A DNA stretch of 64,000 nt from Candidula unifasciata. Taxonomy: Eukaryota; Mollusca; Gastropoda; Stylommatophora; Geomitridae. The stretch's first letter is position 1; each line of letters starts with the position of its first letter. A program made the position numbers and the translations under genes. The stretch lies in NCBI GenBank assembly GCA_905116865.2, contig CAJHNH020001591.1:248001-312000 (forward strand), written 5' to 3'. A model generated the notes under the pieces. That model had not been told where the DNA came from and ran no database searches. It worked only from the letters and a program-made list of their open reading frames with translations. This document shows positions 4,134-59,790 of the stretch, in pieces.

Positions 4134-4311
4134 TGCGATGTGATGGCGGAAACAAATGCTGTGGTGGCCAGAATAATGTACCGTGTCGAGAGAAATAAAA
4201 AGCTGAGAAAATACAGGGAGACTGGATCCTGGGATGGAGACGATGAAATCACAGATGAAGATTATTGTGTAATGCTCCTTTGGCAGGAGGAAGAAAAACA
4301 AGAACGCAAAA
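4134..4311 (+). CDS. Paralog 1 exon 3
   Basis: 178 nt, entered in phase 0 after ctgcag and left in phase 1 before gtaagtggtttg. It encodes 59 residues of the charged core. The intron start gtttgttttccag is shared almost unchanged with paralogs 2 and 4. Confidence 0.78.
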
Positions 4312-6858
4312 GTAAGTGGTTTGTTTTCCAGTTTTTTTTTTTCTTTTTCATGAAATATCCTGCTGCCTATTTGACGCTTGGTCATCCTAGGAGACCAAGA
4401 CTTTTGCCTATTGACACTGAACATCATTTATGTAAATGATCAAATCCTCTGAGCGCGCATTATCTTGAATTAATTGCTGAATTTGTATCTCCGTGGCAAT
4501 TGCTGGGCAAGTCTTTGCATTCCCAGGCTCAGTGTGATTATGACCCTACACAAGTCTGGCTGTTCAGGTGGCACTTTGACCCACTCCTCTCCTTGCCTAA
4601 TATTCTCAAGGATGCGAACCTGTCTTGATGTCTTCTGCCTTAGCCATCCATGACTTCCCTTTTATCAGCCGCTGACCCTTAACTGCACCCAGAGCTTCAT
4701 GCAGAGGGTGGTCTGCGTCTGCAGCTTCCCTGAGATATGACTTCATTCGCAGCACCTTGTGCCTAGCTGCAACAGTCGGCAAACCAAGAATCAAGGCCGA
4801 AAGGTAGCGATATCCATAATACCGAGCCTAGGGATAACAAATCGTAGCTTTTGGATACTAAAACAAACAAACACAACACTGGGGTGTCTTTGGTGCAACC
4901 CAGAATGACCCGCAAAGCTGTGTTCTGTAAGCACTCTAGTTTGTCCATCTGACTCTTTGAGACAGTAAGCAGTCCCAGGCATTAATCAACCACTGACAGG
5001 ATCAGGTGCTGATATAGTGTAAAAGGTATTCAAATTCAAATTCTCTTTCTTTGACCACTTTCAGCTAGGTCCGTTCACATTTCTGCTCACTTTCCTTTCA
5101 GCTATATTTGTGGTGACGTTTTCTGGTCGCGATCTTATTTGATTCTGGATTGTGTTTAATGTTGTCACTTTCTGTTTGTTGTGGTTTCCGCTCTTGCTGT
5201 TGTTTTTGTAATCTGGCTGGCCCTGTGCTGCGCTCAAGATGATTGGATGTTGGATCGATTTATTGTCGTATTCCTTGGCTGTTTGTTGTTTCCGGTGAAA
5301 GTAGATTGCCTATCCTAATAAGGACCGGCGGTCGATTGACTTGGGCAGGTACTGATGGCTATACTGCTGAGGTCTGGTATTATATTATTGGGTATTTAAA
5401 GCTTACCTCTTTATCTAGAGGCCGTTCCACAATCCTCCATTGGTGGACTCGCCGGGTTGGGAATAACCGCCCTAGCGTACCCATTTTTTCCTTCAAATTT
5501 TAAACTGCCAAGGGATTTTTTAATGTGCATGCATAGCCCAAGTCTGTGAATTCTTAGCTCTTTAACCCTTTTATTATATGTAAATTCATTATACAATGTT
5601 GTTAAAAAAAAGTAACAAGTAAAGGACCCTTGTCATACAAGTAGTTCATTAGGTATATGATGCTAGACTTATTTTTGCATAGACCAGTCAAGTCAACACT
5701 GGATGGGTGATATTCAGTAACTTTCACCTTTATCCTCTTAATGCTTCAGTCTGTTCTTAAATAGAACAATTCATATTACAAGCAGATGCTATGATATTTT
5801 TCTGCAACAAGGCAAAACAATTTGTTTCTATTGATATCATTTTTGTTCTGTCAATTCAGGATTGGTTACAGTTTTATGTGCACTTTTAAAGAAAAACTGG
5901 TGTGCAGTTTGAAAATATACTTTGTGAACTGCAAAATGCTAACACTGCCCTGACAACTATATATTATTGGAATTCCGTATTTTTCATTACAGAACGCGCA
6001 CAACGTGTGGCATTGATGCACAGAATAGCAGATGATATGGAAAAGTGGTAAGCATACATTCTAATAATACTGTACCATATATGAAATTAAAACAAGTTAT
6101 GACCAAAGCAGGAACAGTACAACCAGCCAAGCTATGCATGGATAAACTAACTCTGGGAGGGCATTTACTGACTGGAATGGTGTTGTTTTCTAATATAAAG
6201 ATTTTATTGTTTAGTGTACGGAGTGGAAAATCTCAACCCGCCAGCACAATCTCTGGCATGTACAGGTATAGGTAGACGTATTAGGGATCAGATTCTTCAC
6301 TAAGGGTTTGTGTAAAATCTTTGTGATTTTGGTAATAAAGTTATTTAAACAACGTGGACACACACAATACATCGCACAATTTGTTGTCTGGCATGTCTTG
6401 TTAGATATAGTTGTGGGATGCAATTTTTTGTTGTTTAGAAGCTTCTGCTGGGGGCCCTAAGTTTAGCCGGGGCATAGACATGGCTGAAATGGGTTTCTGG
6501 GACCTCTCTGCGGGTGATCTTCATCCGAACAGTTAGTGGGGGGGGGTGGGGGGGGGGGTCAGGGTTAGCCTAGGGGTGACATATGTGCTAGGATGTCAAT
6601 ACTGACATGTAACAAGTTGTAAGCATGTTGTAACAATTTACGTAGGTGAATTTTCTCTCCTTGTCATCTGTAATGTGTGTTGTGAAAATTCTATTTTGTG
6701 AGAAGGTTAAAGGATGCTCAAAATTTTCACCTCAGAATACCTTAACTCGATCAGATGGGCCTTATGGCAGAAGAGCAGCACTGACACTCTCTACAGGGTG
6801 TGTTCATTATTTTCATTCCAGGGCCCCGGCGCCGTTAAGACCCAGAGGATCCTCCTAG
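4134..6858 (+). CDS. Paralog 1 of the tandem gene family, 3' part (exons 3-5)
   Basis: Exons are 4134-4311, 5993-6047 and 6822-6858 (stop TAG 6856-6858), giving 89 C-terminal residues. Each junction has a clean acceptor (ttctgcag, tcattacag, tcattccag) and donor (gtaagt, gtaagc), with phases 0, 1 and 2 as in paralogs 2-4. The core holds VARIMYRVERNKKLRKY, then GSWDGDDEITDEDY and a Lys/Glu-rich helix, and ends RPRGSS. Exon 2 with the start codon is not visible; it should lie left of position 1, beyond the retrotransposon in intron 2. I do not recognise the protein. No signal peptide, transmembrane segment or catalytic motif is visible in this part. Family membership is certain from the shared structure; function is unknown. 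Confidence 0.75.
4440..5035 (-). mobile_element. Jockey-like LINE C-terminal fragment with a nested SINE
   Basis: On the minus strand about 4880-5035 reads QMDKLECLQNTALRVILG and GCTKDTPV; the frame resumes at 4790 with LGLPTVAARHKVLRMK and continues through HPLHEALGAVKGQRL and SWMAKAED. This is the region after the reverse transcriptase in molluscan Jockey-like LINEs. The gap is filled by a SINE (4790-4880). Confidence 0.7.
4790..4880 (+). mobile_element. SINE, family C, 3' part
   Basis: It shares nearly the whole aatcaaggccgaaagg...ggatactaaaa stretch with 41550-41630, including gcgatatccataataccgag. It interrupts the LINE reading frame around it, so it landed later. Confidence 0.65.
5993..6047 (+). 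CDS. Paralog 1 exon 4
   Basis: 55-nt micro-exon, entered in phase 1 and left in phase 2 before gtaagcatac. It encodes RAQRVALMHRIADDMEK plus the split codons. The other two frames hit stops, which fixes the reading frame. Confidence 0.75.
6440..6535 (+). mobile_element. SINE-like repeat, family D fragment
   Basis: gggtttctgggacctctctgcgggtgatcttcat matches the middle of the family D copies at 22300-22545, 49205-49445 and 55869-56090. A poly-G tract follows. Confidence 0.4.
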
Positions 6859-10310: not shown

Positions 10311-10429
10311 TGCTAAGTAACTATATAGAAATCAACAGAAGCCACGTCCGTACATGTGCAGTATTCCGGATGCAACCGTTGAAGTCGAATTTCAACATCC
10401 GTTAGTTAGTTGGTAAATAGAGTGATTAG

Positions 10430-10775: not shown

Positions 10776-10799
10776 GAATTACTTATTTGCTGGTGACTA

Positions 10800-11300: not shown

Positions 11301-11319
11301 AACTGTATCCGACAGTTTG

Positions 11320-14640: not shown

Positions 14641-14905
14641 ACTCAGCATGGCATCAACGTCTGATGACTCTGCCAGCATGGCATCAACACCTGATGACTC
14701 TGTCAGCCTGGCATCAACACCTGATGACTCTGTCAGCATGGCATCAACTTCTGTTGACTTTGCCGGCATGGCATCAACTTCTGATGGCTCAGACATGGCG
14801 TCAACTTCTGATGGCTCAGACATGGCGTCACCTTTTGATGAATCAGCCATGGGAACTGGTTCTTGTAGTACCTCTCAGAAGGCCAAGAGAAAGAAAGATG
14901 GCAAA
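14641..14905 (+). CDS. Paralog 2 exon 2 with start codon and acidic repeats
   Basis: The acceptor tattgtttcag is followed by actcagcATG. The donor is AAA|gtaggt. The coding part (258 nt) is a whole number of codons, so the junction is phase 0. Without splicing the frame would run 13 codons to a TAA at 14942. Confidence 0.78.
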
Positions 14906-17900
14906 GTAGGTCATGCAACTTTGTCCTTGCATTCTGGCATGTAAACAAATAAAGTAGGATTAAAGGTTATCTTCTTCTTTCTTTCTGTAGTCCTGCTCTT
15001 CCCTTCAGTGTCAGCTTTGAATAGGGATCTGGTGCCAGCAATGGTGTGCTGCCTAGATGATAGTATTATTGGCCTCTGATGCTCCATCTGTCAGTCACCT
15101 TTAAATGTTTAAATCTGTTTTTAAATCTCTCCACTTACTTTATTTTAGTGTGCTTTTTCCATTGCACTGTATAGGTTGATCATTATTTCTTTAAAGCTAT
15201 TCTTAATGCTGTCATTCCATATTTTGCATGGTCTTTCCCTTGCTCTGTTTCCATTATATTTTTTCAGCATGGCTCTGTGTAGCAGTTGTTACCGTTACGT
15301 TCCTGTCAGATGACCAAACCATTTCTTCTGTTGGTCTTTGGTGAACTGAATGGCTGGTTTTAGTCCTAATCTTCTAGTTTGTTTTTTATGTTTTCCTGTT
15401 ACTCTGACAGCTCTTCTAAGACATTTTATCTACATTGTGATTTTGCACTCATTGGTGTCTGTAAGGGTTCATGTACGACACTGGTAGCATAAAGTTACTA
15501 ATTTTTCAGGGCTGGAGTAGTGGCTAGTTTGATTAAAATATTAAGAATTAAGCAAATTCCGCAAGGACATGTCAAATGAAAACATTTTTTTAGTTACCTC
15601 TTTGATTGACTAAAGTTACCTCTGCCTTAAGAGTTATCTGCATTTGATGTATTCATAAGTTACCACTGTCTGATGGACTGATGTGTTATCTCTGATTTAC
15701 CAAGTTACCTCTGTCTGTTTAATATAATTACCTTAAGAGTTACCTCTGTCAAAACAAATGGTTACAAGAACTAGACAGGACTAGCAACGCCGCACGGCAT
15801 AAAGAGACATGACTATTATTGTCGCACGACATGATTAGACAGGACTAGCAACGACATGAACTATAAGTTGAAGAAACGACTGATGGGACCTTCCCCGCCC
15901 TCATTGTAATATATTTTTAAGCTTTTGTATAATGACTCAACCATGACTGTACTCAAACACTTACAGCTAATTAATCATTTTCAAAAACTGACATTAAACC
16001 TGCTAAAATCTGGTAGGCGAGCCCTTAGATTCAGCAGATGTTCCCAGGATCAGTGAGTGAAGCAAAGAATGGTTATATTGTAAGCTTCAATCTGCATCTT
16101 AAGAGAGAATTAAGAAGAGAATGTGGGGGATTGCATAATTCACTCATAAAAAAACAGGAGCATTGGACCAAACATTCCCTGTGGGGGGGGGGGGGGGCAT
16201 GGCTCCATTTTTGAGGGACATATAAAAGGTGCAGTCTTTTGAATGAGATGAAAAAGGGGTTTGGCTGTACATCTAACACATCTTTTCTTTGATATTAATT
16301 GTGCCTACATATTATTTAAACTAAAACCTAATCTTTTATTAGATCTTTATCTGTCATTTCCTGAAGTTCTTATTAATTGTAACATTTTATAATAATAAAA
16401 TAAGATCATAATAAGTCAGGATGTAATTATGGTATAATGAACAAAGTTGGAAATAAACTTTATCTTAAAAACATTCAGAATTAGGCACACAGATCTGTCT
16501 AATATTCTAAACATGTGATCTATAATTCAAATAGAATAAGACTTGAGTTTTTTTTTATAAGTGACCATGAGTTTTTTTAAATTTCTGCAGGCGGCAGAAA
16601 TAATAGAAGCTGAAGCCATAGTAGCCAGAATAATGTGGCGCGTGGAGAGAAACAAAAAACTAATGAAATACGTACAGACCGGTGAATGGGATGGAGGCAT
16701 AATCACATATGAAGACCATCTTGAAATGAAAGAGGAGATAGAGTATAGAAAACGTCAAAAAGTTGAAAGTGAGTGGTTTGTTTTCCAGTTTACTTGTGGG
16801 TTTTTTTTTTTTTTAAAACATTGCTGGTACCTGTTTAAAACTGGGTCAGTCCAGGAGCCTTGGTCATACAATTTGCCTGCTTCAAAGGGAGATCAAGTAT
16901 AAGCCTACTGGCCTTACAGGCACGTATGCTATCTAGAGCTTTTTTATCCGCTGGTACACAGTACCTGCTCAACGTCAATATTTTAATAAATGATGATTAC
17001 ATCTTTTATGGTGAGTCCTGACCCCTTCTCCCCTTAGCCCCAACATTTTCTTGTTCTTCTTCCTCTTTGCATTTGATTGTGTATGCTCAGATCAGACCAT
17101 CAGGTGGGTTGTCTTTATGAACTCGCATGTCAGTAGCAGGTCTTTTAAGGTTCCCCATAGCTTGCTCTGCACACTTTGCTCTTGAGACCAGGTGTCTTTT
17201 CAAAGTTGAAGGTAGAGCATGTGCAGGTCTGCAGAATGTGTTCAGATGTTTGTGGTCCTGTTTGACAGGCACACTGTGGGGACTGTACAGTCTTTATTTT
17301 ATACATATGGTAGCTGAGCCTGCAGTGCCCTGTACATAGACAGATACTGTTGCATGTTGCTTTCTGTTGAGTCTGCTGAGGAAGTTTTGTGGCTGTTTAC
17401 TTTAATTTGTTCTCTCTGTTATTTCCCTTGATAGGTGTTCAGAATATCCGGGTTAACAACAATAGATGGGTGCGTTGTTTCTTCTTAGTTCCATTTTAAC
17501 TCATTTCCTGGTATGCCGCAATGAGCCGGAATCCACAGAAGTATAACACCAACAAGGGCAATCACCATTAGAGTCACTTAGAATCAGGTGGCTCTTTCAG
17601 CTACTGGCACGCCCTCTAGTTCCAAATTTCTTGTTCTTGTGACAGTAAAAGTTAGTAACGCACAGCGGCCCTTGAATGATCTGTAGTTTTGCTGTCATGT
17701 GCTCAGTTTTACTTATGGAGTAATAATAATGTGCCAAGGGATTGATAATGTGCGCACAGTCTATTTCTTCTTACCTTTCTCACTCTTTCAGTTTATACAT
17801 TCCTTCTTTGTCAATCGGGGATAGCCTACAGTTTTGTGTGCATGTTTGAGAATTTAAGGGAAACTATACTCTCAATGTTTATAAATGAAAAATGTCCATG

Positions 17901-19304
17901 ATGAAATATGAAATGTCAGAACTGCACTAACTGTCATACTGTATTGTATAGTTTCACATTTCTTGTTGCAGGACATTGGAGACATTTGGCCTTGAAGAGG
18001 AGAGTAGTGGACAGTTTAATAAAATGGTAAGCATAAATTTTACTAGTAATGTACGACATGAAAATTGTTTAAAAAACATAGTTTAATATTATTGCTAGAA
18101 GAAAACAACCAACCAAGATCTCAGTCAAGAAAACTTAAACTTCAAGTATTTATAGAGGATCCCATCGTCAAACAGAAAAATGAAAGCAGAGATAGAATAT
18201 ACAGGGTGTTCTTACACTCTGGTAACTCTTTATGACAAATAGTCTTTCCTTCAACCAATAATTCTGAATTTGGCATTCTGGAATACTATTTTGATCTGTA
18301 ACAAAAACAAAAAGTATTGACATCCTGTAGATGTAATCAAATTGTTGAGCAGATTTCTGTAAAAACATGCAACAGTTGACACAAATAAGAGAACTAGTTA
18401 ATACAGTATTTATATCAACATTGAATTACTTGTGCCAAACATGGACAGTAACAGCAAACACTAGATCAAGAGACAACAGAGCAAATAGTTTATGATTGTT
18501 ATACAAATGTTAAAGATCTACCAAGTACCTCATACTTTTTATAGTCATCTTACTACTTACTGACTTACTTAGTCGTTCTATCTTGGGGTGTAGAGGTTTA
18601 CCAGAGAGATCGCCAGGCATCTCTATCAGCAGTTTTTTTTCTTTCTTGCTTTGTTCCATTCTAGTCCTGTGTCAGTTAGGGACTCTATAATCTTATTATC
18701 ATTTATAAATATAAGCATTACAAAAGGATTGTATAAAGGGGCGGATGAGGTTGTTGTTTTCTTTGTGAACAGTATCAAATTAATTCCCCTTAAACAGACT
18801 ACCAAATGGGAAAGACTGCCTTAAATTATAAGAATGGTGTATGTGCACAAATAGACAATCATAGTCTTGAGAATGAGGAAGTGGACAGTGACATGGGGGT
18901 CGTGCTAACATTTAACACTCACAGGACAAGATGAACACATGTTTGAACTGATAACTTGCACCATCGAAAATATACCTTTGTGCTAGCAGTTAAAGATTGG
19001 GGTAAGTGGAATGTCCTTGGTGCCGTGGTGTAAAATCGAAAATGGGTTATTCATGAGAAAGTTTCAGGAAACTTGGAATTTCTAAATCAGAATACACAAC
19101 CACAGTGATTTCCATTCTCAGTTACAGACATTTGGAACTTTGTTACCCCCCTCCAAGACGCGTGTGTGTAGATGTGGATGTTTATACTGACTAAGCGCCG
19201 TGTGGCTCTTGGTCAGAACTACAATACTGACATTATCGACAGGGATTGTCTAATATTTGTATTTCAGGATCCCACTGCGAGGGAGATTCAGAGGAGCTGT
19301 CTAG
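14648..19304 (+). CDS. Paralog 2 of the tandem gene family (complete, about 175 aa)
   Basis: Coding exons are 14648-14905, 16591-16768, 17972-18026 and 19268-19304 (TAG 19302-19304). The ATG has a strong context (cagcATGg) and an in-frame upstream TAG in exon 1. Residues 1-67 are seven 9-10-residue acidic Ser/Thr/Asp repeats (MASTSDDSAS type). KAKRKK near residue 80 looks like a nuclear localisation signal. The core has AIVARIMWRVERNKKL, TGEWDGG and a basic helix RHLALKRRVVDSLIK, and the end is RFRGAV. No signal peptide or membrane segment is seen, so a soluble, perhaps nuclear, protein is inferred. Family and function are not recognised. AATAAA follows at 19468. Confidence 0.78.
14985..15430 (-). 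mobile_element. Old LINE fragment in intron 2
   Basis: The minus strand gives NGNRARERPCKIWNDSIKN and similar, the linker after a LINE reverse transcriptase. The same fragment is at 53040-53395 in paralog 4 and partly at 29800-29890 in paralog 3, so it predates the duplications. Confidence 0.45.
16591..16768 (+). CDS. Paralog 2 exon 3
   Basis: 178 nt, phase 0 to phase 1, acceptor tttctgcag and donor gtgagtggtttg. It encodes the charged core with RVERNKKL and YEDHLEMKEEIEYRKRQK. Confidence 0.8.
17020..17410 (-). mobile_element. LINE C-terminal fragment in intron 3
   Basis: The minus strand reads LNRKQHATVSVYVQG, then CACQTGPQTSEHILQTC across a frameshift. This is the Cys-rich tail that follows RNase H in Jockey-like elements (compare CPCSVAPENAEHVLQHC in the element at 1-3275). 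Confidence 0.6.
17972..18026 (+). CDS. Paralog 2 exon 4
   Basis: 55 nt, phase 1 to 2, encoding a basic helix HWRHLALKRRVVDSLIK. The donor gtaagcat is shared with paralogs 1 and 4. Confidence 0.78.
18545..18680 (-). mobile_element. LINE D 3'-end fragment in intron 4
   Basis: cttacttagtcgttctatct followed by ggggtgtagaggtttaccag matches the 3' end of the LINE at 44700-45997; another copy is at 54710-54840. Confidence 0.6.
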
Positions 19305-29338: not shown

Positions 29339-29723
29339 ACTCAGCATGGCATCAACTCCGGATGACTCGGTCAGCATTTCACTACCTCCGGATGACTTGT
29401 CCAGCAATTCAATAGCTCCGGATGACCTGGCCAGCAATTCAGTAGCTCCGGATGACCCGGCAAGCATTTCACTAGCTCCGGATGACTCGGCCAGTATTTC
29501 ACTAGCTCCGGGTGACTCGGCCAGTATTTCACTAGCTCCTTATGACTCGGCCAGTATTTCACTAGCTCTGGATGACTCGGCCAGTATTTCACTAGCTCTG
29601 GATGACTCAGCCAGTATTTCACTAGCTCCTTATGACTCGGCCAGCATTTCACCAACTCCTGATGATGCAGCCATTTGCGATTGCTCTTGTAGCACCTGTA
29701 TGAAGGTAAGAAAAGATGACAAA
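29339..29723 (+). CDS. Paralog 3 exon 2 with start codon and eleven acidic repeats
   Basis: Acceptor taattcag, then actcagcATGG; donor AAA|gtaggt. The 30-bp unit diverges from that of paralogs 2 and 4 mainly after the first repeat, which is still MASTPDDSVS. The array has therefore been re-homogenised within this copy. Confidence 0.75.
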
Positions 29724-32700
29724 GTAGGTCATACCACTTTCTCCTTATAATGATTACATTTGTAAACCAAGAATTAAATAGGGTCTACCATAGACTATTG
29801 TTTTCTATAGTCACTTTGTGCCAAAACGTCAGTGGCTGAAGAGGCGTCTGGTTTGATCCTCGTGTGCTGTGTAGATGATTGTAAAGTATTCACAACCTAA
29901 GTTCAATTTATCAGTCGCATTTCCACTGTAAAGATTTTAAATCACCGTTACAATAGTGGCCATATTTTAATACATTATAAAAATCACATAAACGACACAG
30001 GGACGTGCCATGGGGTAAAAAAAAAGCCTGGGTCGTCTCCTTTTGACTGATGGGATCCCTTTGTCTGATTGACTGATGGGATCCCTTTGTCTGATTGACT
30101 GATGGGATCCCTCTGTCTGATTGACTGATGGGATCCCTTTGTCTGATTGGCTGATGGGATCCCTCTGTCTGATTGACTGATGGGATCCCTTTGTCTGATT
30201 GACTGATGGGATCCCTTTGTCTGATTGACTGATGGGATCCCTCTGTCTGATTGACTGATGGGATCCCTTTGTCTGATTGGCTGATGGGATCCCTCTGTCT
30301 GATTGACTGATGGGATCCCTTTGTCTGATTGACTGATGGGATCCCTCTGTCTGATTGACTGATGGGATCCCTTTGTCTGATTGGCTGATGGGATCCCTCT
30401 GTCTGATTGGCTGATGGGATCCCTCTGTCTGATTGACTGATGGGATCCCTCTGTCTGATTGACTGATGGGATCCCTCTGTCTGATTGGCTGATGGGATCC
30501 CTCTGTCTGATTGGCTGATGGGATCCCTCTGTCTGATTGACTGATGGGATCCCTCTGTCTGATTGGCTGATGGGATCCCTCTGTCTGATTGGCTGATGGG
30601 ATCCCTCTGTCTGATTGGCTGATGGGATCCCTCTGTCTGATTGGCTGATGAGACCCGTCTGTCTAATTGAGATTCATTTGCGATCGTTGTAACATGTTCT
30701 AGAAATCTAATATAAGCGGTAGCTGCTGTAGTATATCCGCTGGACTCAGCCTGTGGATTCAAAAGCCGTGTGTTCAAATCCAAATAGAGTTGGCCTTTTG
30801 AAAAATAAATTTGGCTCCCAGGTCGACCCAGTCTTGGGTACCAGTTAAAAACCTGTGAAGTAAAGGCGGCTAGCGTGAGGTTGACCGCATCAGCAATCGA
30901 GTGCTGATCGGTCTATAAAATATAGGTCTAACAATATAGTAAACTTAAATGTTTGGAAAGGGGCCATTTACTTAATTAGTCTAACTACCCAACTGCAAAC
31001 CCACTTTAAGATATTCTATTACATTAATCAACGAATTTTCGAAGTTATTTGAATAAGAATTTGTGATTGTTTTCTAAGGCTAGTTTAGGATTTGATGAAA
31101 TTCACCAACTGGCTCTGAGTTTTGATTTTAATGATAAATTTTCATTACAGTAATAAACAAAATGTCTGCCTGTTTAATTACTTGAGGTGACCAGGCAGTC
31201 TTTCTACTATAGCATTGTAAAAATTGTGATCACATACTTAGTTGATACTTCTAAACAAAAAGTGATTGGAAAAAAAATATATTTAAAGTTCACGTAGAAT
31301 GTTTTTAGAAAAGGCACAGTTGTAACCAGTTCAGTCACTGTTCAACCCATGAGACAAGCAAAGAATAGTAAATGTTAATCAATATTGTATAAGAAACAAG
31401 GAGAGTTGGTGGGAGACTAATTAAGTCTCTCCATGGGAATCAGCAAGATTAAACCAAACAATGGGAGACTAATTAAGTCTCTCCATGAGAATCAGCAAGA
31501 TTAGATCAAACAGTAGGAGACCAGCTGTCTCTCAATAGGAATCAGCAAGATTAGACCAAACAGTGGGAGACTGGCTAAGTCTTTGTATAGGAATCAGCAA
31601 GATTAGACCAAACAGTGGGAGACTGGCTAAGTCTCTCCACATAGGAATCAGCAAGATTAGACCAAACAGTGGGAGACTGGCTAAGTCTCTTCATACGAAT
31701 CAGCAAGATTAGACCAAACATCCCTGTGTGGGAAACATGACTAAATTTTAGAATTGAAAAAAAAAAAAAACAACCAAGACCTCCTAAAGGAAATAAGTTC
31801 GACTTCTGTCCTTCTGTTACTGACGCTGAGGTCTGTTCTGTTACTTTCTCCAATTAATTTATATGCCAGTTCACATAGTTCCTATACGTTGTGACTGTTT
31901 ATTATAAATTAAACGGCAATAGTGTAACAATTATATAATGAACATTCAAGCGAAGTCTTTTTTTAAAGGTTAAGAATTGAGACATACAGACTCATCTAAC
32001 ACCCCGCCTTTAAGTTTTTAATAATTGACATGCTGTCTCATTTCCACAGCTAGATGACAGGGTTGATGAAGCCCTAATGGCCTATATATTATGGCGCGTC
32101 GAGAGAAATAAAAAACTCTACCTATTTGCATACTATAACACTTATCGTGCGTATATTGTTAATGTTTGCCCAAGATCAGCGGGCAACATGGATATGTGGT
32201 TGGTAGTAGGCTGGCTGAGAGCCGCTATGGATCCGGAAGGTATGGGTTCATGTCCTGACAAAACAATTGACCTCGGCTCCCAGGTCAGCCCAGCCTTGAA
32301 AGGGTATCAGGACATCATCACCAACCGATTACAGTCTGGTCTATAAACTATGGATCTAATCCTCAATGCCAATTACGCCTGAATGTGGGGAAGAGGTTTC
32401 ACTGGGAACAATCTACAAAATTAAGCACTATTTCACTGGCATTAATACTCAAAGATTATGCACTAGTTTGCCGAGATTAATACTGAAGATTATTCACTTG
32501 TTTGCTAAGATTAATACCAGAATTACGCACTCTTTTTTCATTGGGATTAACATCCAAACTGCTGTGTTCTTTCATTGGGATTAACATCCAAACTGCTGTG
32601 TTCTTTCACTGGGATTAACATCCAAACTGCTGTGTTCTTTCACTGGAATTAACATCCAAACTGCTGTGTTCTTTCACTGGAATTAACATCCAAACTGCTG

Positions 32701-35597
32701 TGCTCTTTTACTGGGATTAACATCCATATTTCTGTGTTCTTTCACTGGGATTAACATCCAAACTGCTGTGTTCTTTCACTGGGATTAACATCCAAACTGT
32801 TGTGTTCTTTTACTGGGATTAACATCCAACCTGCTGTGTTCTTTCACTGGGATTAACATCCAAACTGCTGTGTTCTTTCACTGGAATTAACATCCAAACT
32901 GCTGTGCTCTTTTACTGGGATTAACATCCATATTTCTGTGTTCTTTCACTGGGATTAACATCCAAACTGTTGTGTTCTTTCACTGGGATTAACATCCAAA
33001 CTGTTGTGTTCTTTTACTGGGATTAATATCCATATTTCTGTGTTCTTTCACTGGGATTAACATCCAAACTGTTGTGTTCTTTCACTGGGATTAACATCCA
33101 AACTGTTGTGTTCTTTCACTGGGATTAACATCCAACCTGCTGTGTTCTTTTACTGGGATTAACATCCAAACTGTTGTGTTCTTTCACTGGGATTAACATC
33201 CAAACTGCTGTGCTCTTTTACTGGGATTAACATCCAAACTGCTGTGTTTTTTTTTACTGGGATTAACATCCAAACTGCTGTGCTCTTTTACTGGGATTAA
33301 CATCCAAACTGCTGTGTTTTTTTTTACTGGGATTAACATCCAAACTGCTGTGTTTTTTTTTACTGGGATTAACATCCAAACTGCTGTGTTTTTTTTACTG
33401 GGATTAACATCCAAACTGCTGTGTACTTTCACTAGAATTAACATACAAACTGCTGTGTTCTTTCACTGGGATTAACATACAAACTGCTGTGTTCTTTCAC
33501 TAGAATTAACATACAAACTGCTGTGTTCTTTCACTAGAATTAACATACAAACTGCTGTGTTCTTTCACTGGGATTAACATCCAAACTGTTGTGTTCTTTC
33601 ACTAGAATTAACATACAAACTGCTGTGTTCTTTCACTGGGATTAACATACAAACTGCTGTGTTCTTTCACTGGGATTAACATCCAAACTGCTGTGTACTT
33701 TCACTAGAATTAACATACAAACTGCTGTGTTCTTTCACTGGGATTAACATACAAACTGCTGTGTTCTTTCACTAGAATTAACATACAAACTGCTGTGTTC
33801 TTTCACTAGAATTAACATACAAACTGCTGTGTTCTTTCACTGGGATTAACATACAAACTGCTGTGTTCTTTCACTAGAATTAACATACAAACTGCTGTGT
33901 ACTTTCACTAGAATTAACATACAAACTGCTGTGTACTTTCACTGGGATTAACATACAAACTGCTGTGTACTTTCACTAGAATTAACATCCAAACTGCTGT
34001 GTACTTTCACTAGAATTAACATCCAAACTGTTGTGTTCTTTCACTGGGATTAACATACAAACTGCTGTGTACTTTCACTAGAATTAACATCCAAACTGCT
34101 GTGTTCTTTCACTAGAATTAACATACAAACTGTTGTGTTCTTTCACTGGGATTAACATACAAACTGCTGTGTACTTTCACTAGAATTAACATCCAAACTG
34201 CTGTGTACTTTCACTAGAATTAACATCCAAACTGCTGTGTTCTTTCACTAGAATTAACATACAAACTGTTGTGTTCTTTCACTAGAATTAACATCCAAAC
34301 TGCTGTGTACTTTCACTAGAATTAACATCCAAACTGTTGTGTTCTTTCACTGGGATTAACATCCAAACTGCTGTGTTCTTTCACTGGGATTAACATCCAA
34401 ACTGTTGTGTTCTTTCACTGGGATTAACATCCAAACTGCTGTGTTCTTTCACTGGGATTAACATCCAAACTGTTGTGTTCTTTCACTGGGATTAACATCC
34501 AAACTGCTGTGTTCTTTCACTGGGATTAACATCCAAACTGCTGTGTTCTTTCACTGGTATTATTACACAAAACAATGGATTTATTGCTGTACTGTATTGT
34601 ATAATTCTCACACTTTCTGTTTGTTACAGGTCGCATAAGACAGACATTAAGAAGGAAATTGGAAGATGATATTTCGAATTGGTAAGCAGACTTTTGAAAA
34701 ATAGAAATGTACCCTTTCTCATATCTTCTAACATATAACTGACAGTAAAAATTTGTCACGTCTCATATCTTCCAACACATAATTCTCAACATCCCCGTGT
34801 GGGTTCCGGGGCCCCATTGTGGGGAAAACAAGAATAGACCCACTGCCTCCCCAAAAGCATGTCGTAAGAGTCGACTAGTTGGGGAGTTTCCTTTGAAGTC
34901 GGAGTGCATCTGCCGGAGAGGCAAGGAACCAGCAAGTGAGAGCAAACAATACAATCTGTTTTCAACTCACAGATAATGCTACGGAACAAGTTGAATTGAT
35001 GAGTTTACAGCTGGTGAATGCGAAGAAGAAGAAGAATTCTCAACAATAATGTGTCACGTCTCATATATGGCTAGCGGTGCCCCCCCCCCCCCCCCCCAAC
35101 ACTTACACCAGAAGACAGTCTCAATCACCAAGCACCAAAGAAAAACATCTCGTACAAAGCAACCTCCCCAGGTACCAATCTTGGTCACTCCCAACAAATC
35201 AGAAAAGGAAACTATGAGCCGTGGAAACTAGTGACTAGAAGAGATGGACTTCTGAGGTGACAAACTGCAACCTGGTATGTGGTATATGCGTGTAATATGA
35301 GCAAACCAGTAATTACAAGTGATTGTTTTCCCTCTATAATTTGAAGCATCTCATAAGTGTTTAATGCTTTACATTTCTACCTGTGAATAACTGAGCATGG
35401 TCAGTGATCATTACCTTGCTTTACAATATAAGTTTGGAACTTAAATACCGTTCTTCTCCATGACATTTGTGCGCTGAGGTGAACGTGTACAAGTGAAAGG
35501 TGCCCTTAGGCAAAAGTACAACCTTGACTGCCTCTACAGGATTGTCTATTTTCGTTACAGGGACCTAATGCCAGGAAGACCTCATGGATCCGCCTAG
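29346..35597 (+). CDS. Paralog 3 of the tandem gene family (complete, about 187 aa, short exon 3)
   Basis: Coding exons are 29346-29723, 32050-32146, 34630-34681 and 35561-35597 (TAG 35595-35597). Exon 2 encodes eleven acidic repeats of about ten residues, most of the form ISLAPDDSAS, then a Cys-containing CDCSCSTC and VRKDDK. Exon 3 keeps LMAYILWRVERNKKL but then changes to YLFAYYNTY and lacks about 27 residues present in the other copies. Its donor GTGCGTATATTGTT still aligns with that of paralog 4 and keeps phase 1. Exon 4 gives RIRQTLRRKLEDDISN and exon 5 ends RPHGSA. If the weak donor is used the protein is intact; otherwise this copy is a pseudogene. AATAAA is at 35940. Confidence 0.68.
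30040..30670. repeat. 26-bp minisatellite in paralog 3 intron 2
   Basis: Unit ctgattgactgatgggatcc plus ctctgt, about 24 copies with gact/ggct and cttt/ctct variants. The 290-residue open frame on the minus strand is a by-product of a stop-free unit. Confidence 0.93.
30727..30935 (+). mobile_element. tRNA-derived SINE, family B
   Basis: tRNA-like head (tatatccgctggactcagcc) with B box gttcaaatcc. Body cccaggtcgacccagtcttg, then gcggctagcgtgaggttgac and gatcggtctataaaatatag. Confidence 0.75.
31390..31725. repeat. About 55-bp tandem repeat in paralog 3 intron 2
   Basis: Six units with gggagactggctaagtctct, then aatcagcaagattagaccaa. The first two carry taattaagtctctcc instead. Paralog 2 shows a single degenerate relative near 16025-16075. 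Confidence 0.85.
32050..32146 (+). CDS. Paralog 3 exon 3 (shortened)
   Basis: Acceptor tttccacag. 97 nt leaves one extra base, so phase 1 is kept. The donor region gtgcgtatattgtt aligns with gtaagtatattgtt of paralog 4 in 12 of 14 positions. Read through unspliced, the frame continues into a SINE to TAA at 32344. Confidence 0.6.
32170..32375 (+). mobile_element. tRNA-derived SINE, family B
   Basis: Head gtaggctggctgagagccgc, body ctcggctcccaggtcagccc, end cagtctggtctataaactat. It lies directly after the exon 3 donor of paralog 3 and fills the start of intron 3. Confidence 0.7.
32390..34555. repeat. 34-bp minisatellite in paralog 3 intron 3
   Basis: About 60 units of ctgggattaacatccaaact plus gctgtgttctttca. 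Left and right thirds are mostly the gggatt/catcc type; the middle (about 33430-34330) is rich in the agaatt/catac type; units with T8-T9 runs cluster at 33240-33400. The array stops about 75 nt before exon 4. A degenerate left edge (32390-32540) resembles the single-copy sequence at 55440-55520 in paralog 4. Confidence 0.95.
34630..34681 (+). CDS. Paralog 3 exon 4
   Basis: 52 nt (one codon shorter than the others), phase 1 to 2, acceptor tttgttacag and donor gtaagcag. Encodes RIRQTLRRKLEDDISN. Confidence 0.75.
34793..35036 (+). mobile_element. SINE family A carrying a 69-bp foreign stretch
   Basis: From cccgtgtgggttccggggcc to agctggtgaatgcgaagaag. Its normal middle is replaced at 34935-35003 by sequence identical to 37224-37292. 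Confidence 0.75.
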
Positions 35598-35945
35598 AGA
35601 TGTTTGTGAAGTAGACATAGCCTGGAAGACCTAGCGGATCCGCCTAGAATGTTTGTGAAGTAGGTATGGCCTGGAAGACCTAGAGGATCCGCCTAGAGAT
35701 GTTTGTGAAGTAGACATAGCCTGGAAGACCTAGAGGATCCGCCTAGAATGTTTGTGAAGTAGGTATGGCCTGGAAGACCTAGAGGATCCGCCTAGAGATG
35801 TTTGTGAAGTAGACTTGGCTCAACCAAGGAACAAGAACACCAGCTTTACATCCATCGACTCCGTCAGTTTAGAATGATTCCAGAATCTACGACTAAAGTA
35901 AAATGTGGAGTGATAATCTCACACATCAAGTTCTGTTACAATAAA
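35561..35945 (+). CDS. Paralog 3 exon 5: coding end, repeated 3' UTR and AATAAA
   Basis: Coding to TAG 35595-35597 (DLMPGRPHGSA). Five copies of a roughly 50-bp unit (cctggaagacctagaggatc, then gatgtttgtgaagtagacat) follow to about 35820, starting inside the coding end. AATAAA at 35940-35945. Confidence 0.72.
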
Positions 35946-52463: not shown

Positions 52464-52977
52464 ACACAGCATGGCATCAGCTTCTGATGAGCCACTTGGC
52501 ATGATGCCTACTTCTGATGAGCCAGTTGGCATGGAGTCTACTTCTGATGAGCCAGTTGGCATGGGGTCTACTTCTGATGAGCCAGTTGGCATGGCATCAG
52601 CTTCTGATGATCCAGTTGGCATGATGCCTACTTCTGATGATCCAGTTGGCATGGAGTCTACTTCTGATGAGCCAGTTGGCATGGGGTCTACTTCTGATGA
52701 TCCAGTTGGCATGGCATCAGCTTCTGATGATCCAGTTGGCATGGCATCTACTTCTGATGACCCAGTTGGCATGGGGTCTACTTCTGATAACCTTGTTGGC
52801 ATGGGGTCTACTTCGGATGACCCAGTTTGCATAGCGACTACTTCGGATGACCCAGTTTGCATAGCGACTACTTCGGATGACTCAGACAGCATGGTTTCAT
52901 CTTCTGATGAGTTAGTCATGGCATCAAGCTGCACCAGTGGGAAATCTAAGAAGGCCAAGAGAAGGAAGAAAGACAAA
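52464..52977 (+). CDS. Paralog 4 exon 2 with start codon and fifteen acidic repeats
   Basis: Acceptor tattgtttcag, then acacagcATGG; donor AAA|gtaggt. The first eight repeats form a 120-bp tandem duplication (52471-52590 and 52591-52710) with four differences by hand count, three of them gag/gat (Glu/Asp). Confidence 0.8.
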
Positions 52978-55900
52978 GTAGGTCATACAACTTTTTCTAT
53001 ACACTCTGACGTGTAAACAAAACATAAAATGTATCAGTCTTCCTATTTCTTTCTTTAGTCCTGTTCTTTTCTTCAGTGGCACTTTTGAATAGACAACTGG
53101 TGCGAGCCTTGGTGTGCTTTGTAGATCAACGGCCTCAAGTGTTCCATATGTTAACTGCTTTTTTATCTTCTTCTTTCTTCCTCCAGTTTCTTTATTTCTT
53201 TAAATCTGTTCTTGATGCTGTCATTCCATATTCTACATGGTCTTCCTGTTGCATTAGATCCATGAAATGTATGGGCTGTCTGTGGCAGTTGAACGTCAGG
53301 TGACCAAACCATCCTATATGTTGTTCTTTTAAGGAGCTGTATGACTGGTTTCAGTCCAATTCTCCTGATAATTTTGGTTTGTTGTTGTTGTAAATCTAAG
53401 ACATCTCATCTATGTTATGATTTTGCACTAATTAGTCTTTAAAAGAGTGTATATGAAATTTTTAAGTTACCTCTTTCTGATTGACTGAAGTGTTACCTCT
53501 GATTAACTTCTTCTTTCATTAGCTTTGTTCTACTGATGAGTTACCTCTGTCTTAAGGACTGATGAGTTACCGCTGTCTCAAGGACTGATGAGTACCTCTG
53601 TCTCAAGGACTGATGAGTACCTCTGTCTCAAGGACTGATGAGTACCTCTGTCTCAAGGACTGATAAGTACTTCTGTCTAATCAGTTGACTGCAAGAAATG
53701 ATGGAGATCATTGTAACAAAACCAAAACATGTTATGTGCAAGTGGCTGAGACGGGGTTTTACAGATGAATGATAAGAATACCCTGGACAGATTTAAAAGA
53801 GTAATGAAGATGTCTTGAAAGAAACTGACTTATAAAGACAACTGGTGGCCCACATCAGGAGACATTCTTTGGTCATGTCATGAGAAGGAGAAAACTGGAG
53901 TACATCGTGATGTAGCACATCTGTCTTCTTTGTTTAGGTTGATGTCGCACCCATGTTCACCTTTTGTTTGCCACAGGAGTCTATTGGAAGAGATTAGACG
54001 AGGAGAATGTCGTGGTGATAATGCCTTGCTTGCTGCATGCTTCTCACGTGACTCTGATGCTTGTATAATAAAATGTCTGGAAGCAACTGTTCTTTTCTGT
54101 ACTGTCTTTATTGTGATACTTCAGCAATGTCAAAAACAACATCAATGATATTCTGAATGGCTGCTTTTTTAGCTGTATGGTTACATACTCTTGTGGTCGC
54201 GTTGTGTTCTTCATCTCTAGTTACTTTGTTAACTGGTTCTGGTGTCTGATTTTCTGCTTAGATCTTGATTGCATCAGATTGCATCATCTGATTCTGCGCC
54301 TGAATATACTAATTTGTTGCAGATGGCCTTATGGAGACTCCCAGAAAGCCAGTACTACTGCGTTCTCTTTGACAGGGCTCATCAACAATTACATCATATA
54401 CCACCGATAGACTGTTCATTTGCAAAAAAAAACTCACTGCTAATAAACAAACAAATGAATCCAGAAAGGAATATCAAAATTGCGAAGACCTGTTGACTTT
54501 TGTCACTTCAACTAATCCGCAATATCCTAACTCCTGAAAAACAAGTGATGACGTCTCCTTGTTACAGTAAAAGCAGGAAAGTTTGAGGGGGGAAGAGGCA
54601 TAGAGAGACCAAGAGAGAAGATGCTGTGCAGTCTGATTATCTGTCAATTAAAATGTGATAAATAGCACATAATAAAGTTAGATGTTCATAGTACAAGATG
54701 TAATTATACTTACTTAGTCGCTCCTCTTCTACCTTGGGGTGTAGAGGTTTGTCAGAGAGATCGCCAGACGTCTCTATCAGCAGTTCTCTTTCTGGCTTTG
54801 TTCCATTCCAGTCCTCTGTCAGTTAGGGACTGTCGGAAGAGGTAATTATGATAAAAAGAACAAAGAAAGGTTTACATTTTAATTTTAAAAGATTCAGAGT
54901 TAGACGTACAAACCTGCCTAACATTCTGAACTTTTGACCTACAATTAAAATGAAATCGGACTTCCAAGTTTTTAATAACAGTTGACATGTTGTTGCATTT
55001 CTGCAGGCATGCGTAAAAGAAGAAGACATAGACGCCTGGGTAGCAAGATGGATGGTGTATATCGAGAGAAGTAAAATACTCGAGAAATACATGCAGGATG
55101 GGGTGTGGGATGAAGCTAATGGAAAAATAACAAATGCAGACTATCGGGAAATGAAAGAGCTAAAGGATTTTGAAATAAAACAACTGAATAGTAAGTATAT
55201 TGTTTTCCAGTTTCCTTGTTACTTCCGGTTTTTTTTTTCTAAAAAGAAAAAAGCACTGGTACTAACCAACCCAAACCACTATGGTTTCTGGTAGAAGTGT
55301 AGATGGAGAGTTAAAACTGAGTATGTGTACATACAACTAGACCTACTGACATATTAATGTTTACCATGATCAAGTGGCACTTGAGATAAATGTGCCTTTA
55401 CTTTAATAAAACTAGCTTCCACTGGCAACTATAATCATATTTACTGTGCTCTTTCACTAGAATTTGTACCTATAATTAGGACTCTTTAGCTGGATTCATA
55501 ACAATAATTGCAGTGCTTTTCTGTTGGACATAATAACAGCTATTAACCATGTGGATAACAGAGCTCTGTGCGGATGGGGGAGATGAGGGGCTTACTGCCC
55601 CTTAACTTAGCATGTCATTTGCTCAACTAATTAAGGGGGTTTTCTTTGAAGTTGGAGTGCATCTGCTTTAGAGGTGAGGAACCAACAGTCTGCATTGCTG
55701 GCAAATAAACCAGATCTGTAAAAAGTGTTTGTGTTGAGTTGTCAATAACTGACGTCACAGCACCCATGACATTTCCATACATGCTCCACCCTCGTCTTCA
55801 GCAGCTAGCACAGAGTTCCAATGCAAATAGTACCGGTCGTAATCTGGTTATAGGTCCGTCTGACTGACTGACTTTCTACCCCAACAGGACATCACACGAG

Positions 55901-58900
55901 CGATAAACACCCGATGACACAAAGTGCCACCATGTGGATGAGGATTGCCGTGGAGAGGTCCCAGAAACTGCGTTCAAGCAATAGGCCATATTGATGGCCC
56001 GCCTATATTGCGGCCCCTGGCTAAAGCCAGGGTAGGGTAGGCTTCAAATAACAAAAAATTTTGTCCTTAAAAAGTACGAAATTGGATAAATCCAGATCCG
56101 TCTTACCTTTCCTCTGAAGTGTGTATGTATGCAAACTCAAATTTTTGGAACAAAACTGAAGTCTAGATGTGAATAAACAGCCACAGCTTTCTCTGCTGGA
56201 GTTTACAGCTGATGGACACAAAGAAGAAGAAAAAATGGATAATAATACTTACAGTGCTTTTCTAGAAATGATATGCATCATCACTGTGCTTACTGGCAAG
56301 GGCACTAACCACTGTGCTTAGTTTTTGCTTGTAAAGGATTGCCTCCCCTGTGCACAGATACTTTTACCAGGTGCTCTGACTCCCTTGGTAATCTTAGTTT
56401 GAGCTCCTTAATTGCCGTCCTCTTATGTCAATGAAAAACACACAGAGTGTCCATCTTGCCTTTCTGCTGAGCTTTGATTGTTAGTGATGTACCAGAATAA
56501 TCTCTAGCATCTGCTGCTAGTGGATATATGTATCAGAATTATACTATCATACATAGCATCTGTCTCTAGTGGATATATGTATCAGAATTATACTATCATA
56601 CATAGCATCTGTCTCTAGTGGATATATGTATCAGAATTATACTATCATACATAGCATCTGTCTCTAGTGGATATATGTATCAGAATTATACTATCATACA
56701 TAGCATCTGTCTCTAGTGGATATATGTATCAGAATTATACTATCATACATAGCATCTGTCTCTAGTGGATATATGTATCAGAATTATACTATCATACATA
56801 GCATCTGTCTCTAGTGGATATATGTATCAGAATTATACTATCATACATAGCATCTGTCTTTAGTGGATATATGTATCAGAATTATACTATCATACATAGC
56901 ATCTGTCTCAAGTGGATATATATATATATACCAGAATTATACTATCATATGTAACATCTGTCTCAAGTGGATATATATATATATACCAGAATTATACTAT
57001 CATATGTAACATCTGTCTCAAGTGGATATATATATATATATATACCAGAATTATACTATCATACGTAGCATCTGTCTCTAGTGGATATATACCAGAATTT
57101 GACTATCATACGTAGCATCTGTCTCTAGTGGATATATACCAGAATTTGACTATCATACGTAGCTTCTGTCCCTAGTGGATATATACCAGAATTATACTAT
57201 AATACATAGCATCAGTTCCTAGTGGATGTATCATTTTGAAACGGTCGAGACGCCACGGATTACAAATTATTAAATGTATTCTTTTTTTCCCCAACTACCA
57301 AGGGATTGTTTATATGCACACTGTCTATTTCTTCTTAGCTGTTCAACTCTTTCAGATGATGCATTCTTACTCTGTCAGTGCAGAACAGCTAACAGTGGAT
57401 ATATGTATCAGAATTATACTATCATACATAGCATCTGTCTCTAGTGGATATATGTATCAGAATTATACTATCATACATAGCATCTGTCTCTAGTGGATAT
57501 ATGTATCAGAATTATACTATCATACATAGCATCTGTCTCTAGTGGATATATGTATCAGAATTATACTATCATACATAGCATCTGTCTCTAGTGGATATAT
57601 ATACCAGAATTATACTATCATACGTAACATCTGTCTCAAGTGGATATATATATATATATACCAGAATTATACTATCATATGTAACATCTGTCTCAAGTGG
57701 ATATATATATATATATACCAGAATTATACTATCATACGTAGCATCTGTCTCTAGTGGATATATACCAGAATTTGACCATCATACGTAGCATCTGTCTCTA
57801 GTGGATATATGTATCAGAATTATACTATCATACATAGCATCTGTCTCTAGTGGATATATGTATCAGAATTATACTATCATATGTAGCATCTGTCTCTAGT
57901 GGATATATGTATCAGAATTATACTATCATACGTAGCATCTGTCTCTAGTGGATATATGTATCAGAATTATACTATCATACGTAGCATCTGCCTCTAGTGG
58001 ATATATACCAGAATTTGACTATCATACGTAGCTTCTGTCCCTAGTGGATATATACCAGAATTATACTATAATACATAGCATCAGTTCCTAGTGGATGTAT
58101 CATTTTGAAACGGTCGAGACGCCACGGATTACAGATTATTAAATGTATTCTTTTTTTCCCCAACTACCAAGGGATTGTTTATATGCACACTGTCTATTTC
58201 TTCTTAGCTGTTCAACTCTTTCAGATGATGCATTCTTACTCTGTCAGTGCAGAACAGCTAACAGTATTTTTGTGCACACAGCTGTACTGTAAATATTGGG
58301 AGTCCCCGCGGTGGAGCGGCTAAATGCTCACCGCATATCGGTAGGTCATGGATTCGTTCTCTGGAGGAGCCAGGCTTTTTTTTTTAAAAATGACCTTGGC
58401 TCCCAGGTCGACCCAGCCCTGAGTGGGTACCGGATGCAGTCCCGGGAAGTAAAGACAGCTGGCGTGATGCTGACCACATCACCCATCTTGTGCCGATTGG
58501 GCTATAAAAATTTAGGTCTAGCCCTATATGCCCAAAGGCTGGAAAAAGGTCCTTTACTTACTTTACTTACTGTAAATTTTTGCAAATGCATCATTTTCTA
58601 TGACTAAATGCAACATGTCATATACTGCACTGAATGCCATTCTTAATTATAGTTTCATATTTTTTATGTTTCAGCCCTTAGGGAACGTCTGGATTTAAAG
58701 GAGAGAGTAGTGGATGAGATGTTAACTTGGTAAGCATACTTTCTATTAATAATGTTCCATATGAAAATTGCTATTCAAAACCTAGCTATGACCAAACAAG
58801 GACAGAACAACCAAATCAAGATATGCATAGAAAAACCAATTCCGAAAAAAAAGCAAAAGATTTCATTATCTAGTGAACAAGTCAATGGGGAAAAAATGGA

Positions 58901-59790
58901 AACAGATTAAATATAGAGTTAAGTAAATCAGTATCATGAGCATTAAAAAACAAGCAATCAACAATTGTAAAAAATAGCATTAATTAATACAGTATTTTTA
59001 ACAACGTTGTATTTCCATTGCTAAACTTGGAAATTAACAGAATAAAATATTGAAAATGTGGGGACAGAACTGGTGCTCAACTACAAGAGGCAACAGATTT
59101 AAAAAGTTTAAAGTCACAGTTTCTAGTATAAATTTATTAGGAAACACTACATGATACTAATGGCTTTATGTATGGTCTTTGTGCACAAAGTGATAATCAC
59201 CATCTAGAGATAATGGTGCAGATCGGAGTAACCAGGAGATGTCACCACTACTCAAAAACTCAGCGTAAAGACAAGATGGAAATGTAATCAGACTATCTCT
59301 GGTACCATGGGAAATGGAACTTTGTGCTTGCTGCTGAATATAGGGACTGAGCACTTACTGGAATGTCCTGCATGCTGTCATGATGGTTTTTGACTGCTGA
59401 ACTTCATATGAGATGTAAAACTCATGTCATGAAAGTTTGTGACTTTTTGAGAACATTATAAGGTAGAGCGGCATGATCACACATGCCAGTCGGCAAGCGC
59501 CTGATGATGATGATGATAAATCGCAAGCCTCTTATCAGTGTCTGATGCTTGAAATTTCTAACTTAATAACTAAACATGGCCAGTGATCATTATTCTTTAC
59601 AATAGAAATTTGGAGGTTTAATAACTTTAATACCATTTTTCTCCAAGACATGTGTGTTGAGGTGAATGTATATGTGTACAACTGAAGAGTGTGGCCCTTG
59701 GGCAAAAGTAAAACCATGACTACCTCTACATGGATTGTCCTTTTTCATTCCAGGACCCCGATGCCTGGAAGATCTAGAGGATCCACCTAG
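52471..59790 (+). CDS. Paralog 4 of the tandem gene family (complete, about 260 aa)
   Basis: Coding exons are 52471-52977, 55007-55190, 58675-58729 and 59754-59790 (TAG 59788-59790). The ATG lies in cagcATGg with an in-frame upstream TAG in exon 1. Residues 1-149 are fifteen acidic repeats of about ten residues such as MESTSDEPVG. KSKKAKRRKKDK at the end of exon 2 looks like a nuclear localisation signal. The core has WVARWMVYIERSKILEKY, DGVWDEANGKITNADYREMK and a helix RERLDLKERVVDEMLT; the end is RSRGST. It is the largest copy because of the repeats. No AATAAA is found at the position used in paralogs 2 and 3. Confidence 0.77.
53040..53395 (-). mobile_element. Old LINE fragment in intron 2
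   Basis: Counterpart of 14985-15430 (tgatgctgtcattccatatt, catggtcttcc...), inherited through duplication. Confidence 0.45.
53500..53690. repeat. 25-27-bp tandem repeat in paralog 4 intron 2
   Basis: Five units of aaggactgatgagt(t)acct plus ctgtctc. It lies at the same intron site as the 26-bp satellite of paralog 3 and loose gttacctctgtctg copies in paralog 2 (15590-15760). Confidence 0.8.
54710..54840 (-). mobile_element. LINE D 3'-end fragment in intron 2
   Basis: cttacttagtcgctcctctt, then ggggtgtagaggtttgtcag and tgttccattccagtcctctg; nearly identical to 44700-44815. Confidence 0.65.
55007..55190 (+). CDS. Paralog 4 exon 3
   Basis: 184 nt, phase 0 to 1, acceptor tttctgcag, donor gtaagtatattg. 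Two codons longer than in paralogs 1 and 2, in the WDEANGKIT loop. Confidence 0.8.
55600..56235 (+). mobile_element. SINE family A split by nested insertions
   Basis: Left half 55600-55740 (ggagtgcatctgctttagag), right half 56118-56235 (ggaacaaaactgaagtc to gatggacacaaagaagaaga). Between them lie a family R LINE fragment (55745-55868 and 56090-56117, minus) and, inside that, a family D element (55869-56090, minus). Confidence 0.65.
55869..56090 (-). mobile_element. SINE-like repeat, family D
   Basis: tttctaccccaacaggacat, gataaacacccgatgacaca, ccctggctaaagccagggta. Same orientation as 49205. Confidence 0.7.
56500..57215. repeat. 49-bp minisatellite, first block (paralog 4 intron 3)
   Basis: About 14 units of tctagtggatatatgtatca plus gaattatactatcatacatagcatctgtc. 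The right part has variants with longer (TA)n runs. Confidence 0.93.
57196..58275. repeat. 49-bp minisatellite, second block, with a duplicated unique segment
   Basis: The unique segment 57191-57396 (gatgtatcattttgaaacgg ... cagaacagctaacagt) recurs at 58075-58263. It is intron 3 sequence (compare 17735-17860), so about 880 bp of array plus unique intron was duplicated in tandem. Confidence 0.85.
58297..58570 (+). mobile_element. tRNA-derived SINE, family B, well preserved
   Basis: Head gtccccgcggtggagcggct, body ctcccaggtcgacccagccc, then gctgaccacatcacccatct, gccgattgggctataaaaat and a ctttacttactttactta tail. About 100 nt upstream of exon 4 of paralog 4. Confidence 0.8.
58675..58729 (+). 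CDS. Paralog 4 exon 4
   Basis: 55 nt, phase 1 to 2, acceptor tatgtttcag, donor gtaagcatac. Encodes LRERLDLKERVVDEMLT. Confidence 0.78.
59190..59395 (+). mobile_element. Family R LINE 3' fragment, decayed
   Basis: gtcaccactactcaaaaact, ggtaccatgggaaatggaac, tgcttgctgctgaatatagg and tcctgcatgctgtcatg follow the family R tail in order. Confidence 0.5.
59470..59522 (+). mobile_element. LINE C extreme 3' end
   Basis: catgccagtcggcaagcgcc followed by (TGA)n matches the 3' end of LINE C (46009-46060). Confidence 0.55.

Follow-up and report, generated by a model that had tools for sequence, protein, structure and literature searches.

A candidate family of tandem genes in the land snail Candidula unifasciata, with a repeat exon that varies among copies

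Four related copies of a gene-like unit lie in one direction within the window, by which we mean the whole stretch of Candidula unifasciata DNA analyzed here (64,000 bases). Are they members of a protein-coding gene family, and if so, of what kind? A first-pass annotation made from the letters of the sequence had put them forward as the best candidate for an undescribed system. Our working explanation as a whole, held with moderate confidence, is a tandem protein-coding gene family that is undescribed in the databases searched and apparently lineage-restricted. The unrecognized tandem family is supported, and "system" appears too strong a word for what looks like a gene family of one lineage.

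Array layout and gene models

By comparing the window with itself and building gene models from the sequence, we found four related copies, all on the + strand, with three core exons (3–5) common to all. In copies 2, 3, and 4 a repeat exon (exon 2) precedes the three core exons; within the window, copy 1 consists of exons 3–5 only, and its exon 2 presumably lies left of the window end. No further copy of the family above chance was found by tblastn in the 64-kb window. The modeled exons are given below; P0001 is an annotated protein that matches copy 1.

4134..4311, + strand: copy 1 exon 3 (59 codons + 1 nt; gene model, matches P0001)
5993..6047, + strand: copy 1 exon 4 (55 nt; gene model, P0001 tblastn)
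6822..6858, + strand: copy 1 exon 5, coding part to stop (gene model, P0001 tblastn)
14641..14905, + strand: copy 2 exon 2 (ATG at 14648; seven units of 27–30 nt, then basic stretch)
16591..16768, + strand: copy 2 exon 3 (gene model)
17972..18026, + strand: copy 2 exon 4 (55 nt; gene model)
19268..19304, + strand: copy 2 exon 5, coding part to stop (gene model; AATAAA at 19468)
29339..29723, + strand: copy 3 exon 2 (ATG at 29346; 11 repeat units)
32050..32239, + strand: copy 3 exon 3 (homologous to 32118, remainder unrelated; donor edges SINE-like repeat)
34630..34681, + strand: copy 3 exon 4 (52 nt; gene model)
35561..35597, + strand: copy 3 exon 5, coding part to stop (gene model; AATAAA at 35940)
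52464..52977, + strand: copy 4 exon 2 (ATG at 52471; 15 repeat units, then KKAKRRKKDK)
55007..55190, + strand: copy 4 exon 3 (gene model)
58675..58729, + strand: copy 4 exon 4 (55 nt; gene model)
59754..59790, + strand: copy 4 exon 5, coding part to stop (gene model)

The modeled splice sites have GT at 11 of 11 donors and AG at 15 of 15 acceptors, the intron phases are 0, 1, and 2, and the introns (n = 11) measure 774–3484 bases. Exon lengths are equal modulo 3 among copies: Exon 4 has 55, 55, 52, and 55 nt in copies 1–4, and the coding part of exon 5 has 37 nt in all four, with stop codons ending at 6858, 19304, 35597, and 59790. The single direction, the common exon order and phases, the micro-exon sizes, and the common stop position described in the first-pass annotation are all recovered in these models. 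So are the frames said there to be open across the junctions: The core frames are open in the four copies, and all eight other forward frames of exon 3 are interrupted by stops. The cores of copies 1–4 come to 89, 89, 92, and 91 residues, and the spliced proteins of copies 2, 3, and 4 to 175, 218, and 260 residues. Judged by the sequence, the copies are paralogous by DNA-level duplication, because introns and intron flanks are common to them.

A non-coding exon 1, also proposed, could not be established. A block of 85–87 bases upstream of exon 2 is common to copies 3 and 4 (77% identity); no donor could be fixed for such an exon, and one candidate donor leads to an intron of 42 bases in copy 3. 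Poly(A) hexamers, counted without a chance control, occur downstream of the stops in copies 1, 2, and 3 (AATAAA at 19468 in copy 2 and 35940 in copy 3), and none was found within 1200 bases of the copy 4 stop.

Several further elements were seen around the copies. A LINE open frame lies left of copy 1 exon 3 (375–3086, + strand; Pfam RVT_1, E = 7e-40, and RNase_H, E = 1e-13), and two further reverse-transcriptase fragments lie between copies 3 and 4 (46369–47739 and 45281–45616, both on the − strand). A block of ~2.3 kb between copies 1 and 2 (10179–12447) recurs between copies 2 and 3 (24594–27096), 72–75% alike in two pieces; this block is possibly a large element, or else belongs to the tandem unit. 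Immediately downstream of exon 3, copies 1, 2, and 4 show strong conservation over the first 20 bases of the intron (gtaagtggtttgttttccag-like; 4312–4331, 16769–16788, and 55191–55210), and this stretch ends in a possible alternative acceptor.

An annotated protein for copy 1, and searches with the core

P0001 is an unnamed protein product of C. unifasciata with 139 residues. Its residues 51–139 are identical to the spliced core of copy 1 (89 of 89 residues), and tblastn maps them to the three copy 1 exons, so that the splice junctions of this copy are independently supported. The first 50 residues of P0001 have one MASTSD-like start and no repeat array, with RQKKEDEE standing where the basic stretch is expected; among the tblastn matches listed for them, no window position was above chance. 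The part available to us of the published description of the C. unifasciata genome annotation states that ab initio, homology, and RNA-seq evidence were merged by EVM (PMC8496239). Because no relative was found, the P0001 gene model most likely rests on transcripts or on ab initio prediction. The existence of this annotation supports, indirectly, transcription and splicing of copy 1.

An HMM search with the core had been suggested as a check. Our profile search (E up to 1) matched P0001, that is, copy 1 itself, and nothing else among 6092 candidates; in a second protein search (E up to 10), P0001 was again the sole match, among 27 candidates. A third search, with the copy 2 core as query, accepted none of 16 candidates and missed P0001 although it was in the length range. 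Since P0001 is ~45% identical to the copy 2 core, the word filter of the third search evidently misses such relatives, and the absence of relatives elsewhere is weakly tested. Copies 2–4 were not among the database proteins found in the three protein searches.

Family libraries gave chance matches only. Pfam recognized no family in three of the four cores and gave one chance match for copy 1 (E = 0.24); P0001 drew nothing from NCBIfam and a single match, again at the level of chance, from PHROGs (E = 0.59). A known transposon protein, which had been named as a refuting outcome, was not among these matches. The earlier description as an unrecognized family with a variable repeat exon is borne out in these searches, the one relative found being copy 1 itself. 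Sequence searches of the PDB gave matches at E of at least 0.17, among them a sarcoplasmic calcium-binding protein to which we return below, and the search with copy 4 in addition listed a designed helical bundle (E = 0.01), its single stretches not being significant.

Structure prediction, likewise suggested beforehand, gave a two-helix hairpin in both AlphaFold models. For P0001 the helices span residues 38–80 and 91–127 (mean pLDDT 75.4, with block values of 79–97 from residue 51 on), and for copy 4 exon 3 they span residues 5–31 and 43–60 (mean pLDDT 68.5). Foldseek returned nothing at E up to 0.001 and no supported PDB match; together with VIA-align it listed two chains only, neither supported, which does not by itself demonstrate a new fold. 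No N-terminal hydrophobic stretch was seen in copies 2–4 by eye.

Repeat arrays and the rearranged copy 3

The repeat domain had been described as varying from seven to 15 units between copies. This holds for copies 2, 3, and 4, whose exon 2 has seven, 11, and 15 units; P0001, the annotated protein of copy 1, is without an array. By a hand-made list of 17 arrays, tandem repeats occupy 8339 of the 64,000 bases of the window. The arrays and the interspersed repeat mapped in or beside the gene models are as follows.

15590..15770, + strand: copy 2 degenerate intron-2 repeat (homologous to arrays of copies 3 and 4)
30043..30670, + strand: copy 3 intron-2 array (26-bp unit)
32229..32312, + strand: SINE-like interspersed repeat at the exon 3 donor of copy 3 (match secure from 32264)
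35570..35814, + strand: copy 3 minisatellite, exon 5 end and stop amplified
53532..53678, + strand: copy 4 intron-2 array (25-bp unit)
59764..60233, + strand: copy 4 minisatellite, exon 5 end amplified

Copies 2, 3, and 4 have homologous arrays in intron 2 (none of 300 shuffles scored as high in each of three comparisons), and these arrays are therefore probably older than the duplications. In copies 3 and 4 the end of exon 5, stop included, has been amplified as a minisatellite in the 3′ untranslated part. Long minisatellites also stand in intron 3, upstream of exon 4, in copy 3 (32441–34562) and copy 4 (56505–58100); the intron-3 arrays of these two copies are unrelated (of 300 shuffles, 291 score as high), as are the upstream arrays of copies 2 and 4 (81 of 300). 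Before copy 2 exon 2, a 21-bp unit is repeated ~29 times (13959–14565); the end of this array and its flank match the region before copy 4 exon 2 (52289–52340), where the unit does not form an array.

Two readings of repeat sequence were tried and rejected. As a CK2 phosphorylation array, the protein repeats would carry an excess of [ST]xx[DE] sites, and this excess is not family-wide: There are 24 sites in copy 4 against a shuffle mean of 9.1 and 10 in copy 2 against 4.9 (shuffle maximum 12), with no excess in copy 3 (three against 5.8) and four against 2.7 in the first 50 residues of P0001. A Lysostaphin_N match of a reverse-strand minisatellite frame fell below the curated cut-off and was taken as composition.

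Among the four genes described beforehand, copy 3 does not rank equal with the others: The homology of its exon 3 to the other copies ends after RVERNKKL (32118). Positions 32119–32200 score no better against the three other copies than shuffles do (280, 368, and 319 of 500 as high). The donor chosen for copy 3 (32240) falls at the edge of a repeat that we call SINE-like from its look only; the ARAGORN tRNA scan and Rfam at gathering threshold reported nothing. The region around and downstream of this donor matches four interspersed copies in the window (0, 1, 0, and 0 of 500 shuffles as high), the match being secure from 32264 and one copy extending to ~32229, across the donor. Beyond the repeat, the lost half of exon 3 matches copies 1 and 2 at shuffle level (128 and 276 of 300) and copy 4 at a borderline score (seven of 300), so that a remnant may persist there. 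The frames of copy 3 exons 2, 4, and 5 are still open. Copy 3 appears to have lost half an exon, and it may either use the repeat-derived donor or be a dead copy; the other copies, three of four, look intact.

Selection on the frames, rival explanations, and known systems

Exon 3 of copies 1, 2, and 4 match one another (tblastn, E = 6e-13 to 4e-6). We simulated neutral decay at 0.32 substitutions per site, half the pairwise distance under an assumed star tree (pairwise difference set to 0.43; observed, 0.41–0.44), and 4.7% of runs per lineage kept the core open; at shorter distances the share was 9.3% (0.2) and 29% (0.1). If lineages are treated as independent, the chance of open cores without selection comes to ~1e-4 when copies 1, 2, and 4 are counted and to 5e-6 with all four. 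We estimated dN/dS among copies 1, 2, and 4, leaving copy 3 out: NG86 ratios, which are rough with dS near or above 1, are 0.43 (1–2), 0.53 (1–4), and 0.43 (2–4), LWL85 ratios ~0.59 (1–4) and 0.38 (2–4), and maximum likelihood gave 0.23, 0.38, and one saturated value.

Over the core, codon position 3 varies just a little more than positions 1 and 2 do, and in exons 4–5 of copies 1 and 2 it is not more variable (14, 16, and 12 of 30). Exons are less alike than intron flanks in six of six pairs (identity 0.59–0.66 vs. 0.69–0.76), with the bootstrap intervals of exons and flanks overlapping or touching in every pair, more gaps in the flanks, and the three pairs involving copy 3 resting on exons 4–5 only. 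Random pairs put through the identical aligner have an identity of 0.59 on average (maximum 0.74), so the exon DNA identity of 0.59–0.66 is weak evidence alone. The frames of copies 1, 2, and 4 appear to be kept under selection, with weak constraint, and copy 3 is doubtful. Weak constraint would also account for a dN/dS close to 0.5 and for exons that are not better conserved than introns. Combined, the evidence reads as a fast-evolving coding family in which constraint is probably weak or uneven. We base the coding reading on the gene models, the 89-residue identity with P0001, the lengths equal modulo 3, the simulation, and the NG86 ratios. The lower likeness of exons than of flanks, the helix-loop-helix in both models, and the poly(A) hexamers of copies 1–3 also count in favor of our working explanation; the lack of a hexamer near the copy 4 stop and of copies 2–4 among the database proteins found counts against it.

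It is possible, if rather unlikely, that copy 1 is the one working gene and copies 2–4 are pseudogenes without stops yet, the repeat exon being a minisatellite open by chance. The annotated proteins found do include copy 1 only, half an exon is lost in copy 3, and constraint on the core is low; moreover, since the exon 2 arrays copy one open unit, their openness may come cheaply. Against such decay, copies 2 and 4 retain all modeled splice sites, phases, and frames despite differing at 110 of 264 core sites, their NG86 ratio is the 0.43 given above, and exon length differences are multiples of 3. That the array is no snail gene family and instead derives from a mobile element or virus, whether domesticated or actively spreading, we regard as highly improbable: LINE reverse-transcriptase frames and interspersed repeats do surround it, but Pfam, NCBIfam, and PHROGs gave nothing beyond chance, the copies share introns with homologous flanks as in DNA-level duplication, and no further copy rises above chance within the window.

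The core might also be a degenerate EF-hand, one helix-loop-helix from an invertebrate calcium-binding protein (e.g., sarcoplasmic calcium-binding protein) now used for protein contact and not for calcium, a derivation that we consider improbable. A three-copy profile aligns in register with the EF-hand of a sarcoplasmic calcium-binding protein (1q80), and both models are helix-loop-helix with the loop at the matching place. However, the E-value of that alignment, 1.0, is no better than chance, EF-hand proteins were absent from the lists obtained with the four-copy profile and in three single-sequence searches, no Pfam EF-hand model matched any of the four cores (with filters that drop most weak matches), and Foldseek gave just a calmodulin complex at E = 9.8 and probability 0.02. 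The EF-hand motif has a 12-residue loop with D at position 1 and E or D at position 12. In the alignment, copies 1, 2, and 4 have S, G, or W at position 1, never D, and loop length differs among copies.

If the array is a coding family, as we favor, the protein would begin with a predicted disordered tail, acidic in copies 2–4 and made there of ~10-residue repeats around [SP]D[DE]. A basic stretch would follow, then the predicted hairpin of two helices, whose WD...IT..D loop copy 3 has lost, the second predicted helix ending near a fixed W with a short tail like W.P.PGRPRGS after it. Such a protein would most likely be an intracellular helical adaptor with a length-variable tail; it may perhaps be nuclear, although P0001 offers just RQKKEDEE where the basic stretch would stand, the hairpin may pack against a partner, and tail length may drift via gain and loss of minisatellite units. 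The fast divergence of the exons suggests a quickly changing partner or target, as in reproduction or immunity, and copy 3 would be either a rearranged member or on its way to becoming a pseudogene. Still more is conceivable, though we think it unlikely: a new protein family confined to a single lineage of land snails, its two-helix hairpin novel as well. Coding repeat number and amino-acid sequence would then diversify together across the array under a partner-driven arms race, and the locus would be making minisatellites out of its own exons and introns.

Should the copies be transcribed, copies 2–4 would be genes that our protein searches failed to find in the annotation, in a family without a supported fold match. 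The locus would then offer a compact case for the origin of orphan families and for coding minisatellites that alter protein length, and for asking why divergence might run faster in exons than in the adjoining introns.

Among known systems, P0001 is like copy 1 in the 89-residue core and its phase-0 start, and unlike copies 2–4 it has a 50-residue start without a repeat array; it carries no name or domain. With EF-hand proteins such as sarcoplasmic calcium-binding protein, the core shares a helix-loop-helix with an IT..D[YF]..M exit, and it differs in the missing D at loop position 1, the variable loop, and the lack of a significant score. Snake venom families are lineage-restricted tandem gene families with fast exons. 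The snail array resembles them in its tandem copies, in exons less alike than their flanks, and in having no outside relative found; in contrast, copies 2–4 give no sign of secretion by eye at the N terminus, and the pairwise dN/dS of the snail family is <1.
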